From contig NZ_JAPZDS010000007.1 in NCBI RefSeq assembly GCF_029813115.1, positions 124,001 through 188,000 of the forward strand: DNA of 64,000 nucleotides. Reading direction: 5' to 3'. Source of the DNA: Aureimonas sp. SK2. GTDB lineage: Bacteria; Pseudomonadota; Alphaproteobacteria; Rhizobiales; Rhizobiaceae. The notes beneath the pieces were generated by a model, which saw only the letters and a list, made by a program, of their open reading frames with translations, did no database searches and had not been told where the DNA came from. The position numbers and the translations under genes were made by a program. Below are positions 21,245 through 24,526 of this stretch, piece after piece (positions within the stretch are counted from its first letter, which is position 1; each line of letters opens with the position of its first letter).

Positions 21245-22894
21245 TTAGCGCGTCAGGCGCTTGTAGGTCGGACGCTTGGGGTTGACGCTCTCTGGGCCGA
21301 GACGCCGGATCTTGTCCTGCTCGTAGTCCTCGAAGTTGCCCTCGAACCACTCGACATGGCTGTCGCCCTCGAAGGCCAGGATGTGCGTCGCCAGACGGTC
21401 GAGGAACATGCGATCGTGGCTGATGACCACGGCGCAGCCGGCGTATTCCTCCAGCGCATCCTCCAGCGCGGCCAGCGTCTCGGTGTCGAGGTCGTTGGTC
21501 GGCTCGTCGAGAAGGATGACGTTGGAGCCGGTCTTCAGCATCTTGGCGAGGTGCACGCGGTTGCGCTGACCGCCCGACAGGGTGCCGACCTTCTGCTGCT
21601 GGTCCGGCCCCTTGAAGTTGAAGTTGCCGACATAGGCACGGGAGTTCATCTCGTACTTGCCGAGCTTCATGATATCGACCGCGCCCGTCACCTCTTCCCA
21701 GACGTTCTTGTTGGGATCGAGGTGGTCGCGGCTCTGGTCGACATAGCCGAGATCGACGGTCTCGCCGATCTTGATGTCGCCGGAATCCGGCTTCTCCTGT
21801 CCGGTCAGCATCTTGAACAGCGTCGACTTGCCGGCGCCGTTCGGGCCGATGACGCCCACGATGCCGCCCGGCGGCAGCTTGAACGAGAGGTTCTCGATCA
21901 GCACCCGGTCGCCGTAGCTCTTGGTGATGTTCTCGACCTCGATGACCCGGTTGCCGAGGCGCTCGCCCGTCGGGATGACGATCTTGCCGTCGGCGGGCTT
22001 GCGGTTCTCCGCCAGCTCGACCAGCTCGTGATAGGCCTTGATGCGCGCCTTGGACTTGGTCTGGCGGGCCTTGGCGCCCTGCCCCATCCACTCGCGCTCG
22101 CGCGTGAGGGCGCGCATGCGGGCGTCCTCCTCGCGACCTTCCTGGGCCATGCGCTTGGCCTTCTTCTCCAGATAGGTGGAGTAATTGCCCTCGTAGGGCA
22201 CGCCGCGGCCGCGATCGAGCTCGAGAATCCAGCCCGTCACGTTGTCGAGGAAGTAGCGATCGTGCGTGATCATCAGCACGGCGCCCTCGTATTCGCGCAG
22301 GTGCTTCTCCAGCCAGGCGATGGTCTCGGCGTCGAGATGGTTGGTGGGCTCGTCGAGGAGCAGGATGTCCGGCTTCGACAGGAGGAGCTTGCACAGCGCC
22401 ACGCGGCGCTTCTCGCCGCCCGAGAGCGGTCCGACCTCGGCGTCGCGCGGCGGGCAGCGCAGCGCGTCCATCGCCATCTCGACCTGGCTTTCGAGGTCCC
22501 AGAGGTTCTGGCTGTCGATCTGGTCCTGAAGCTTGGCGCCCTCCTCGGCCGTCTCGTCCGAGTAGTTCATCATGAGTTCGTTGTAACGGTCGAGGATGGC
22601 CTGCTTGTCGGCCACACCTTCCATCACGTTCTCGAAGACGGTCTTCGATTCGTCGAGCCTGGGCTCCTGCGGCAGGTAGCCGACGGTGGCGCCCTCGGCG
22701 GCCCAGGCCTCGCCCGTGAACTCCTTGTCGGTGCCCGCCATGATCTTGAGCAGTGTCGACTTACCCGCGCCGTTGGGGCCGAGAATGCCGATCTTGGCAT
22801 CGGGGTAGAAGGAGAGATGGATGTTCTCCAGAACCTTCTTGGTGCCGTAGGCCTTGGTGAGTCCGGCCATATGGTAGATGAACTGGCGAGCCAT
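21245..22894 (-). CDS. ettA: Energy-dependent translational throttle protein EttA (ABC-F)
   Basis: A 549-residue ABC-F ATPase that binds the ribosomal E site and gates the first steps of elongation according to energy charge. It has two nucleotide-binding domains: Walker A GPNGAGKST near residue 39, LSGGEKRRVALCKLLLSKPDILLLDEPTNHLD near 170, and in the second half [14 protein letters not shown] and LSGGQRNRVHLAKMLKTGSNVILLDEPTNDLD. Between them is the Arg/Lys-rich linker (KKAKRMAQEGREEDARMRALTRERE). The ATG at 22894 (MARQFIYHMAGLTKAYGTKK) is standard for EttA. The frame remains open upstream through a palindromic element, but that segment has no family similarity. The 5' leader may include that palindrome. 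Confidence 0.96.
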   Translation of the reverse strand: MARQFIYHMAGLTKAYGTKKVLENIHLSFYPDAKIGILGPNGAGKSTLLKIMAGTDKEFTGEAWAAEGATVGYLPQEPRLDESKTVFENVMEGVADKQAILDRYNELMMNYSDETAEEGAKLQDQIDSQNLWDLESQVEMAMDALRCPPRDAEVGPLSGGEKRRVALCKLLLSKPDILLLDEPTNHLDAETIAWLEKHLREYEGAVLMITHDRYFLDNVTGWILELDRGRGVPYEGNYSTYLEKKAKRMAQEGREEDARMRALTREREWMGQGAKARQTKSKARIKAYHELVELAENRKPADGKIVIPTGERLGNRVIEVENITKSYGDRVLIENLSFKLPPGGIVGVIGPNGAGKSTLFKMLTGQEKPDSGDIKIGETVDLGYVDQSRDHLDPNKNVWEEVTGAVDIMKLGKYEMNSRAYVGNFNFKGPDQQQKVGTLSGGQRNRVHLAKMLKTGSNVILLDEPTNDLDTETLAALEDALEEYAGCAVVISHDRMFLDRLATHILAFEGDSHVEWFEGNFEDYEQDKIRRLGPESVNPKRPTYKRLTR

Positions 22895-22927
22895 CGCGCG
22901 CGCGTCTCCGGTTTGTTCGATGCAGGA

Positions 22928-23092
22928 TAAGAACCGGGGAAAGGACCCTGCGGCGGAGGACCGGCGAGGACTTTTCGCTGCCGGCAAGGCGCCGAGCGCA
23001 GCCGATACAGCGCATCGGCTGATGTCGGCAACGATGTCCGGCGACGGAAAGGACCGGCGGGCCGACCCGCAGGGTTCTTTCCCCGGTTCTAA
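22928..23092. repeat. 165-bp imperfect palindrome with TAA flanks (MITE-like or structured leader)
   Basis: Terminal inverted arms at 22931-22953 and 23067-23089 match at 22 of 23 positions. They are bordered by TAA on both sides (22928-22930 and 23090-23092). The inner arms are also imperfectly complementary: GGACCGGCG-type segments, then CAGCCGAT / ATCGGCTG at 22999-23006 and 23014-23021 around a 7-nt apex. The whole block folds as one long hairpin. It lies 35 bp upstream of the ettA start, so it would be in the ettA leader if transcription begins beyond it. There is no coding function. TAA could be a target-site duplication, giving a MITE-type element. Confidence 0.7.
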
Positions 23093-23226
23093 GTTGGCGC
23101 ACAGGTAAGGCATGCGCCTGCGATGAGCAACAAACCGCGCTCGAAAATCGAGACGCCGCCCGCCGGGTTGACCTTGGCGCCCGCACGGCCGAAGACGCAC
23201 CGACCGACAGAGCACGGGACCGATCC

Positions 23227-23523
23227 ATGATCCGCCACATCGTCTTCTTCAGCGCACGGGACAAGGCCGATCTGCCGGCCATCAAGGAAGGGCTCCAGAC
23301 GCTGGCGGGCATCGCGCATCACGACCATTTCGAGGTGGTCGAGAACGCGCGCGTCGACCCGATGGGCAACGACGTGGACATCGTCGTCTATGCCGAGTTC
23401 CGCGACCGCGCGGCGCTGGCTGCCTACAAGGCCGATCCGATCTACGAGGCCTCGACGCGCCGCGTGCGCCCCTTGCGCGAGATCCGCTATTCCGCCGACT
23501 ACGAGGTGCCCGACCGGGCCTGA
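23227..23523 (+). CDS. Dabb family protein (stress-responsive A/B barrel)
   Basis: A 98-residue protein consisting of one Dabb domain, a ferredoxin-like dimeric alpha-beta barrel. It begins MIRHIVFFSARDKADLPAIKEGL, the typical first strand and helix, and contains VVYAEFRDRAALAAYKADPIYE, the hallmark second half where the repeated helix precedes the last strand (PLREIRYSADYEV). Family members range from stress proteins to small-molecule cyclases, and no substrate is implied here. It follows the palindromic element by about 135 bp and converges with the RNase T2 gene, whose stop is 7 bp away. Confidence 0.9.
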   Translation: MIRHIVFFSARDKADLPAIKEGLQTLAGIAHHDHFEVVENARVDPMGNDVDIVVYAEFRDRAALAAYKADPIYEASTRRVRPLREIRYSADYEVPDRA

Positions 23524-23530
23524 CGAGACA

Positions 23531-24526
23531 TTAGTCGAACCCGGGCGCGTCCACGCGTCCTTCCCGACAGCCGCGCCCGGTCTCCTCGCCGGCTCGGATC
23601 AGCTCGGCGAGCGGCACCTCCCGCGACAAGTCGCCCGCCAGCGCGATGCGCAGTTCGCGGATCATCGGCTCGCCGGACGGATCGTCCCCGCAGTCCACGA
23701 GCACCCGCCGCCCGGCGCCGCGGCCGAAGGCCTGGTCGAAGCTCGCCCGCACCGCATCGGCCGTCAGCGTGTCGCCGATCGAAGCCTCGAACAGGCGGCG
23801 GATGGGAGAGCGGTTCAGTTCCTCCAAAAGGCGGATCGACTGCGCGAAATAGGCCTCGGCATCGCCCTTGAAGCACGTGCCGTGGACCCACCACTCGTGC
23901 CGGTCAAGGCCGGACTGCACGCCCGGCATGACTTCGGAGAGCGCCTGCCGCGTGCCCGCCGAGACTTCGAAGTCCGGCAGCCGACGCCAGTCGCCGCGCT
24001 CGTCCACGCGTCGGACGTCATCGGGCACGCCGCAATATTCGCGGCCGCGCGGCTGGGGCCAGAGGCCATGCAGGGAGAAGCCGTTGCCAGCCGTGCCACC
24101 GCTCCGGCACTCGCGCACCGAGGGGCGGGTCTCGCAGAAGGCCGGCTGCCAGCTGGCGGCCAGGACATAGCTGTCGTGTCCCCCGCTCCGCGTCTTCGGG
24201 GCCGGCCTCGCGTCGGCCGACTGGCTCGCGTCCTCCACCCGGCCGCAGCCGAAGGCCACCCATCGCCTCTCCGGTTCGGCGCCCGGCACGCGGATCAGAT
24301 AGTGGCTGCCGGGCGAAGCGTTGCGGCCGATCAGGGCATAAGACGTGCCCGGTTCCGTGACGATCCGGCCCGGATTGTCCTCCGAGCGGATCGAAGGCGT
24401 CGCAAAGCAGCTTGCCTCCGCCACGAAGACGCCCACCATCGGCACCTGTGCCCGCGCCGCCACAGACGGCAGCGCGAATGCGGCGACGCACGCTCCGATG
24501 ATCGCCAAGCCTGTTGCGCGCGGCAT
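23531..24526 (-). CDS. Secreted ribonuclease T2 family protein
   Basis: A 331-residue exported RNase of the T2 fold. After a signal peptide (residues 1-27, ending SVAARA) comes an extra N-terminal region of about 85 residues (FVAEASCFATPSI onward, with Cys residues) not found in minimal RNase T2. The two catalytic segments are complete: CAS I as FSLHGLWPQ (His153) and CAS II as HEWWVHGTC (residues 210-218, two catalytic His). Several cysteines fit disulfides in the periplasm. The start at 24526 has GAGGAG about 8 nt upstream; a start at 24550 would add eight residues and hide the signal peptide. It diverges from the hydrolase gene and probably scavenges periplasmic or external RNA. Confidence 0.92.
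   Translation of the reverse strand: MPRATGLAIIGACVAAFALPSVAARAQVPMVGVFVAEASCFATPSIRSEDNPGRIVTEPGTSYALIGRNASPGSHYLIRVPGAEPERRWVAFGCGRVEDASQSADARPAPKTRSGGHDSYVLAASWQPAFCETRPSVRECRSGGTAGNGFSLHGLWPQPRGREYCGVPDDVRRVDERGDWRRLPDFEVSAGTRQALSEVMPGVQSGLDRHEWWVHGTCFKGDAEAYFAQSIRLLEELNRSPIRRLFEASIGDTLTADAVRASFDQAFGRGAGRRVLVDCGDDPSGEPMIRELRIALAGDLSREVPLAELIRAGEETGRGCREGRVDAPGFD

Follow-up and report, generated by a model that had tools for sequence, protein, structure and literature searches.

A palindrome upstream of ettA in Aureimonas sp. SK2 is a probable member of a MITE family with a conserved hairpin core and several kinds of ends

The window analyzed here, a stretch of 64,000 nucleotides from the 4.56 Mb genome of Aureimonas sp. 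SK2 (G000, contig C67), contains a near-perfect palindrome of 165 bases (22928-23092), read from the sequence as 159 bp with TAA on each side. It is one copy of a family of small elements that are very probably non-autonomous type II MITEs, moved in trans by IS5 transposases of the IS1031 kind. The family appears to be new. It is unusual in that the same conserved hairpin core occurs with different kinds of ends, and in its preference for stop codons. In a search by title or abstract start, with subscription journals mostly outside it, no publication describing these elements was found, and the family is apparently undescribed so far in Aureimonas and its relatives. The features of the locus are as follows, with positions in the window.

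21245..22894, - strand: ettA (NF008775 / TIGR03719, E 7e-283)
22928..22930: left target-site duplication TAA (TNA type), from the sequence; a single TGA at empty sites L025 and L034
22931..23089, + strand (the best-folding strand of the family): element, 159 bp, covariance-model match
22931..22953, + strand: left terminal inverted repeat, type A, GAACCGGGGAAAGGACCCTGCGG; matched by the right arm and by the ends of the family
22952..22959, + strand: conserved internal loop, left side, GGCGGAGG, overlapping the end of the arm; GGYGGAGG conserved across copies
23000..23020, + strand: apical hairpin AGCCGATACAGCGCATCGGCT, consensus helix 5
23062..23068, + strand: conserved internal loop, right side, CCGACCC, overlapping the start of the right arm; conserved across copies
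23067..23089, + strand: right terminal inverted repeat, from the sequence
23090..23092: right target-site duplication TAA, from the sequence
23093..23134, - strand: conserved block upstream of ettA, TTGTTGCTC...CTTACCTGTGCGCCAACT, with many invariant columns; candidate ettA promoter
23227..23523, + strand: Dabb stress-responsive A/B barrel gene (PF07876, E 1.8e-17), divergent from ettA

A preliminary description of this DNA had reported paired arms and a folded interior, and both hold up. When the left arm, GAACCGGGGAAAGGACCCTGCGG, is aligned with the right arm in reverse complement, GAACCGGGGAAAGAACCCTGCGG, 22 of the 23 positions are identical. The RNA minimum free energy of the element lies far below that of shuffled sequences on both strands, at -111.9 kcal/mol on the + strand (z -9.97) and -100.5 kcal/mol on the - strand (z -8.80), with 0 of 200 shuffles equally low in either case. 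The covariance model of the family (see below) scores the window copy at 154.3 bits on the + strand and 48.4 bits on the - strand. Rfam gave no match on the element in a search of window positions 22000-24000 and seven further loci, and a known Rfam RNA was dropped as its identity, with no match near a curated threshold in these regions. Elsewhere, in G018, a sul1 RNA motif (RF03058, 63.8 bits; L011:1656-1708, - strand) lies 15 nt from an element copy at 1480-1640.

Comparison with related loci indicates that the palindrome is an insertion, a mobile element rather than a private leader of ettA. Nine syntenic Aureimonas ettA-Dabb loci (L025-L031, L033 and L034) lack the palindrome; L032 is not syntenic, and L035-L038, in which no such palindrome was seen, are more distant and are excluded from the nine. 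The closest two, L025 and L034, read GCAGGA-TGA-GTTGGCGCACAGG, and the window reads GCAGGA-TAA-element-TAA-GTTGG, with one base different between empty and filled sites (TGA versus TAA). The single triplet at these syntenic sites fits the earlier proposal that the TAA flanks are a real 3-bp target duplication, in a comparison that covers the window copy alone.

The element stands upstream of ettA, 36 nt from its start codon (22894, - strand), and the insertion point is the end of the conserved block at 23093..23134. This block has the layout of a promoter and many invariant columns in the window and eight Aureimonas loci; we infer the label of promoter from this conservation and layout, and a generic sigma-70 promoter scan found no site at ettA. 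The Dabb gene on the other side is 95% identical to its A. flava counterpart. Because the element sits so close upstream of ettA, just past the promoter-like block, it may be part of the ettA 5' leader, antisense to the best-folding strand of the family. The preliminary description had offered a structured, possibly regulatory leader as one of two readings, and the position and the very stable fold of both strands agree with it. A dedicated leader regulating ettA is nevertheless very improbable. None of the nine syntenic loci holds the element or its inverted arms, so it is not a conserved regulator of ettA; many copies occur elsewhere, six of them seen beside other named genes, and there is no Rfam match. 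A unique conserved ettA riboregulator is ruled out, a leader with conserved function is already refuted, and for now the connection with ettA counts as a coincidence particular to this strain.

The other early reading, a MITE-type element, was borne out by further copies in the same genome and its relatives, by empty sites, by TNA duplications and by insertion sequences with matching ends. A blastn search of the own genome with the element (E <= 1e-3) returned five more rows at four other places, one row being an opposite-strand reading, and blastn matches were found in 11 of 41 genomes, the own genome included and one of them marginal. A covariance model was then built from an alignment of 43 of 46 elements (L006, L020 and L111 were omitted; L004, the window copy re-read, and L016, without a match, had been left out of the 46). 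Within the genus, 13 of 21 genomes, again counting the own one, gave a match at E <= 1e-5. Match counts are 21 in G000, 84 in G012, 56 in G019 and 36 in G016, some perhaps being reverse-strand readings; the distinct places, counted by eye, number at least 14, 43, 31 and 27 respectively. In the wider family, where no more than seven candidates were scored per genome, matches at E <= 1e-5 came from 37 of 394 genomes, many of them weak. At the level of the order, with E <= 1e-8, the model found 10 of 397 genomes, of which all but the own genome (nine) belong to other families. Five copies compared by blastn with 72,556 plasmids matched only those of Aureimonas AU20, Agrobacterium sp. T29 and Shinella sp. 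HZN7, the last two with single named copies.

Two sets of copies were used for the counts given below, both being samples of the best-scoring copies rather than a census. The first contains 107 copies, from the window and 99 scanned loci (118 matches minus 11 reverse-strand readings of the same palindrome). The second, of 147, adds 40 copies from other genera and includes two pairs identical between genomes (L202/L311 and L312/L321). Length is 155-165 bp in 146 of the 147 copies, with outliers of 149-217 bp elsewhere. The elements are, as expected of MITEs, shorter than 500 bp, non-coding and bounded by terminal inverted repeats.

Several individual copies deserve description. On the window's own contig a further copy, with ends of type F, is found some 6 kb ahead of the first window position (L229; G000:C67:117719-117879). 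Two copies with type C ends in G019 (contig C95; L122:1483-1645 on the - strand and 2545-2709 on the + strand) stand in opposite orientation about 0.9 kb apart and could in principle act as a composite unit. A GC-rich hairpin is added to the right half of the core, near the same place, in the copy at L214:728-944 (217 bp), where it follows GGCAACG, and in the L020 element (194 bp), where it precedes GCAACG; both versions contain CGGGCGAGAC. Other long copies, of 191-215 bp, occur in G018, G012 and G137. The long copies with a second hairpin are a length variant. Weaker model matches of about 85-115 bp, mainly to model positions 31-138, in G255, G269, G094, G117, G170, G405 and G563 could belong to a shorter relative, or to a palindromic repeat of other genera that is unrelated.

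The flanks of the copies have a consistent target signature, with the logo YTNAR. TNA stands on both sides of 62 of the 107 distinct copies (background 0.1%) and on neither side of 11, and the flanking triplets are identical in 51 (background 2.6%). In the set of 147 the corresponding numbers are 79 with TNA on both sides, 21 with it on neither, and 63 with identical triplets. Target-site duplication and empty sites, the latter for the window copy, are likewise found as in MITEs.

Insertion sequences with similar 16-bp ends were found at ten places; they are 842-911 bp long and have TNA flanks, which were a condition of the scan itself.

Type E, 845 bp: own genome, contigs C20 and C4
Type E, 851 bp: G137
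Type A/G, two, 842 and 857 bp: G012 (AU20)
Type F, 905-911 bp: G009, G003 (three) and G312

Their flanking triplets are equal in five of the ten (L133, L135, L148, L149 and L281) and unequal in the other five (L139, L267, L271, L274 and L282). The type E insertion sequence of the own genome encodes an IS5-family transposase in two overlapping frames, an arrangement described for the IS1031 group (PMC12016507), with the DUF4096 and DDE parts of NF033580; the remaining ones were judged from PF13340/PF01609 matches. Among 146 element copies, those with an end at 0-1 mismatch of 16 number 14, 12 and 12 for the type E insertion sequences E_G000b, E_G000a and E_G137, 9, 4 and 0 for F_G312, F_G009 and F_G003, and 5 and 0 for AG_G012a and AG_G012b. 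Type II MITEs resemble an autonomous element at the ends only, and here the similarity between element and insertion sequence is confined to about 16 bp at the ends; the core is absent from the ten insertion sequence loci by the covariance model (best 16.6 bits). Since its ends match these IS5-family (IS1031-like) insertion sequences, the element is, as judged from sequence, a type II MITE.

Not every kind of end has such a partner. Among the own-genome insertion sequence loci scanned none has type A ends, the type A/G insertion sequences being in G012, and none of the loci scanned has ends of types B, C or D. For types B and C, no autonomous insertion sequence came up when 3 and later 21 genomes were searched by pattern and the ends at 89 insertion sequence loci (some of them the same place) were scanned. 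Lineage-specific matching of elements and insertion sequences was considered and dropped: the GAGCGTC variant of the G137 insertion sequence is present in elements of G137 and G208 (L200, L312 and L319-L321), and also in those of G000 and G019 (L230, L254 and L255).

The copies have in common a core of about 115 bp, which occurs under at least five kinds of ends; rarer kinds are also present.

Type A: GAGCCGGGGACAGAAC
Type B: GAGCCTGTTTGGAAAC
Type C: GAGACTGTTTCGGAAG
Type E: GAGYGCCTAACAAAAC
Type F: GAGCCCGTCCGGAAAG

Ends were typed by the nearest prototype, with prototypes picked by the author. In a tree of 143 cores with the ends removed, type E is found on both sides of a split supported 99/99, and constraining it to a single group costs 54.6 log-likelihood units (AU p 0.0106). 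For the 110 cores with cleanly typed ends a single origin of type E gives AU p 0.0046; smaller data sets give 0.077, 0.075, 0.076 and 0.025, and not all reject it. A single origin of type A gives AU p 0.016 with 143 cores versus 0.076 with clean ends. These trees rested on few columns, and type E was chosen for AU testing after the first tree had been seen. They contained 106, 104, 143 and 110 rows, with the 217-bp copy excluded throughout, L119 and L005 excluded from the 104, L235 and two long-branched L219 copies from the 143, and poorly typed ends from the 110. Because type E sits on two distant core lineages, repeated switching of ends is likely but not proven; recombination between copies would give the same trace as capture of new ends.

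Covariation within the core was evaluated with the 43-copy MAFFT alignment and the RNAalifold structure predicted from that same alignment. In this alignment 92.9% of cells pair, and changes on both sides are seen in 40 of 51 pairs (20, 5, 10, 3 and 2 in helices 1 to 5), so that all five helices have covarying pairs. The two helices inside the ends, 2 and 3, show both-side changes in 15 of 16 pairs. The covariation score is 0.50, versus 0.185 in shuffles and at most 0.14 when the structure is slid. The internal loop is nearly unchanging, with CGACC in 141 and CCGACCC in 116 of 146 copies, and GGYGGAGG, several columns of which are at least 95% conserved, in 94 of 146. Read by eye, it contains a possible tandem G-A (GGAG/CGAC); a kink-turn was considered and dropped.

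Such pairing could be maintained by mutation alone, if one arm of the quasi-palindrome overwrites the other through template switching, and covariation would then be no sign of RNA or hairpin function. Consistent with this, full Watson-Crick to Watson-Crick replacement is the commonest class of change at 18 strand-neutral pairs (112, versus 70 G-U, 30 A-C and 57 other mismatches), and paired columns change as often as unpaired ones (9.4 and 9.3 changes per column). Template switching would also erase the internal loops, however, and these are among the best-conserved parts; nor does it predict an excess of G-U over A-C. Among single changes at pairs common to the folds of both strands, G-U on the + strand outnumbers A-C by 99 to 45 (p 8e-6), and at inner pairs, inside the ends, by 41 to 21 (p 0.015), although in the strictest inner set the numbers are 11 and 8 (p 0.65, not significant). 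We regard this mutational explanation as somewhat unlikely. Selection at the RNA level, and a role of the core as RNA, are suggested; they are graded no higher because the parsimony events were counted on a rough tree and depend on one another to some degree, and because transitions are unequal in unpaired columns as well.

The hairpin might alternatively matter as DNA, as a folded single strand, a cruciform or a site bound by a host protein, needed for transposition. The core is recognizable under different ends, hence presumably with different transposases, and copies at gene ends lie in both orientations (32 left and 23 right junctions, p 0.28), both of which this explanation would accommodate. 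It does not account for the better fold of the + strand, seen in 103 of 106 copies (mean -96.6 versus -78.5 kcal/mol with RNA parameters; the copies are related, so the comparisons are not independent), or for the absence of the core from insertion sequences that would share the transposase, and a DNA role of this kind appears unlikely.

Many copies stand at the ends of genes. Of the 107 copies, 54 are flanked by a triplet that serves as the stop codon of an open frame 300 nt or longer, and 55 of 87 stop-capable junctions are stops, compared with 967 of 5463 control sites. Among the available non-coding YTNAR sites, a crude gene finder classes 26% as stop codons, fewer than among the copies (p 5e-8). 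The 5' neighbor has the same direction as the element in 67 and the opposite in 40 of the 107 copies, and neighbors are convergent around 32 copies versus divergent around 16 (p 0.029). No clear orientation bias towards genes was found, either within co-directional pairs (sense 35, antisense 24, p 0.19) or at the stop-codon junctions noted above. Published gene tables, checked for six named contexts from the best blast hits, agree with placement at gene ends: one copy abuts the CorA stop codon, one is directly 3' of a gene, one reaches 2 nt into the end of an upstream gene, one match starts 5 nt behind a gene, one copy has convergent genes on its two sides, at 17 and 15 nt, and one is between divergent genes.

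This placement, the excess of convergent neighbors and one terminator-like site inside the window copy (23057-23070, + strand; 0.4 expected in shuffles) would all agree with an element kept as a bidirectional transcript end or mRNA stabilizer at gene 3' ends. The same pattern is given by avoidance of harm, however, as proposed for pneumococcal repeats, which likewise favor convergent gaps in the account of PMC3049150, and of the 40 copies from other genera only 14 adjoin a stop codon. Retention for such a function is accordingly rated as distinctly unlikely.

Under the preferred reading, as a type II MITE moved in trans, a transposase would bind the GAG... ends and insert the element at YTNAR. 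Insertion would often fall at the stop codon of a gene, where the TNA duplication would leave the gene closed and the hairpin would become part of the 3' end of its transcript; the window copy would have landed just upstream of ettA. The core would be kept as a folded unit, with the ends probably changed more than once to fit the transposases at hand. It is possible, though less likely than not, that selection acts on the folded core as such, which would be a mobile structured RNA or a single-stranded hairpin, repeatedly exchanging its ends, persisting across genera and landing harmlessly on stop codons. With similar reserve, the exchange of ends could mean that such a core rides whichever IS1031-like transposase its host carries.

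REP and REPIN elements consist of REP units of 20-40 bp and are associated with RAYT, a tyrosine transposase. The Aureimonas element is set apart from their description by its length, its target duplication and its DDE partners. ERIC/IRU and Correia (NEMIS) elements are similarly small, mostly intergenic, hairpin-forming and present in many copies, and their transcripts are described as RNase-processed (PMC2229807, PMC10969869). Unlike these, the Aureimonas element is GC-rich, has a TNA duplication, IS1031-like partners and a single core that bears five or more kinds of ends, and its target is often a stop codon. RUP of pneumococcus is a MITE with ends matching those of the IS presumed to mobilize it, IS630-Spn1, according to PMC2229807, but it is paired with one IS and uses TA targets, whereas the Aureimonas element has TNA targets and ends of several IS lineages. 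YPAL/RU-2 of Yersinia (~168 bp) is alike in length, in being a palindrome and in not being A+T-rich, as described in PMC2229807; its duplications of 3-26 bp and internal inverted repeats are unlike those of the Aureimonas element. CIR of Caulobacter and Brucella are also intergenic structured repeats of alphaproteobacteria, but are reported in PMC2229807 as ~110 bp long with two arms, a linker and GANTC motifs, where the Aureimonas element is one long hairpin. The IS1031 group of the IS5 family has a TNA target and a 3-bp duplication, and according to PMC12016507 its member ISLrh measures 857 bp, contains two overlapping ORFs and has the ends GAACCTGTCTAGTATCT, which start like the type B ends of the element, GAGCCTGTTTGG. 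The Aureimonas element differs from this group in having no transposase, and only the ends are common to both.

MITEs are usually viewed as the decayed remains of one IS. A single conserved core with ends of several IS lineages would instead make this element a lasting parasite of parasites, and a natural experiment on the co-evolution of transposases and their ends. If the hairpin acts as RNA, many genes in some genomes would share the same transplanted 3' or 5' structure, the effect of which would be measurable by comparing strains with filled and empty sites.
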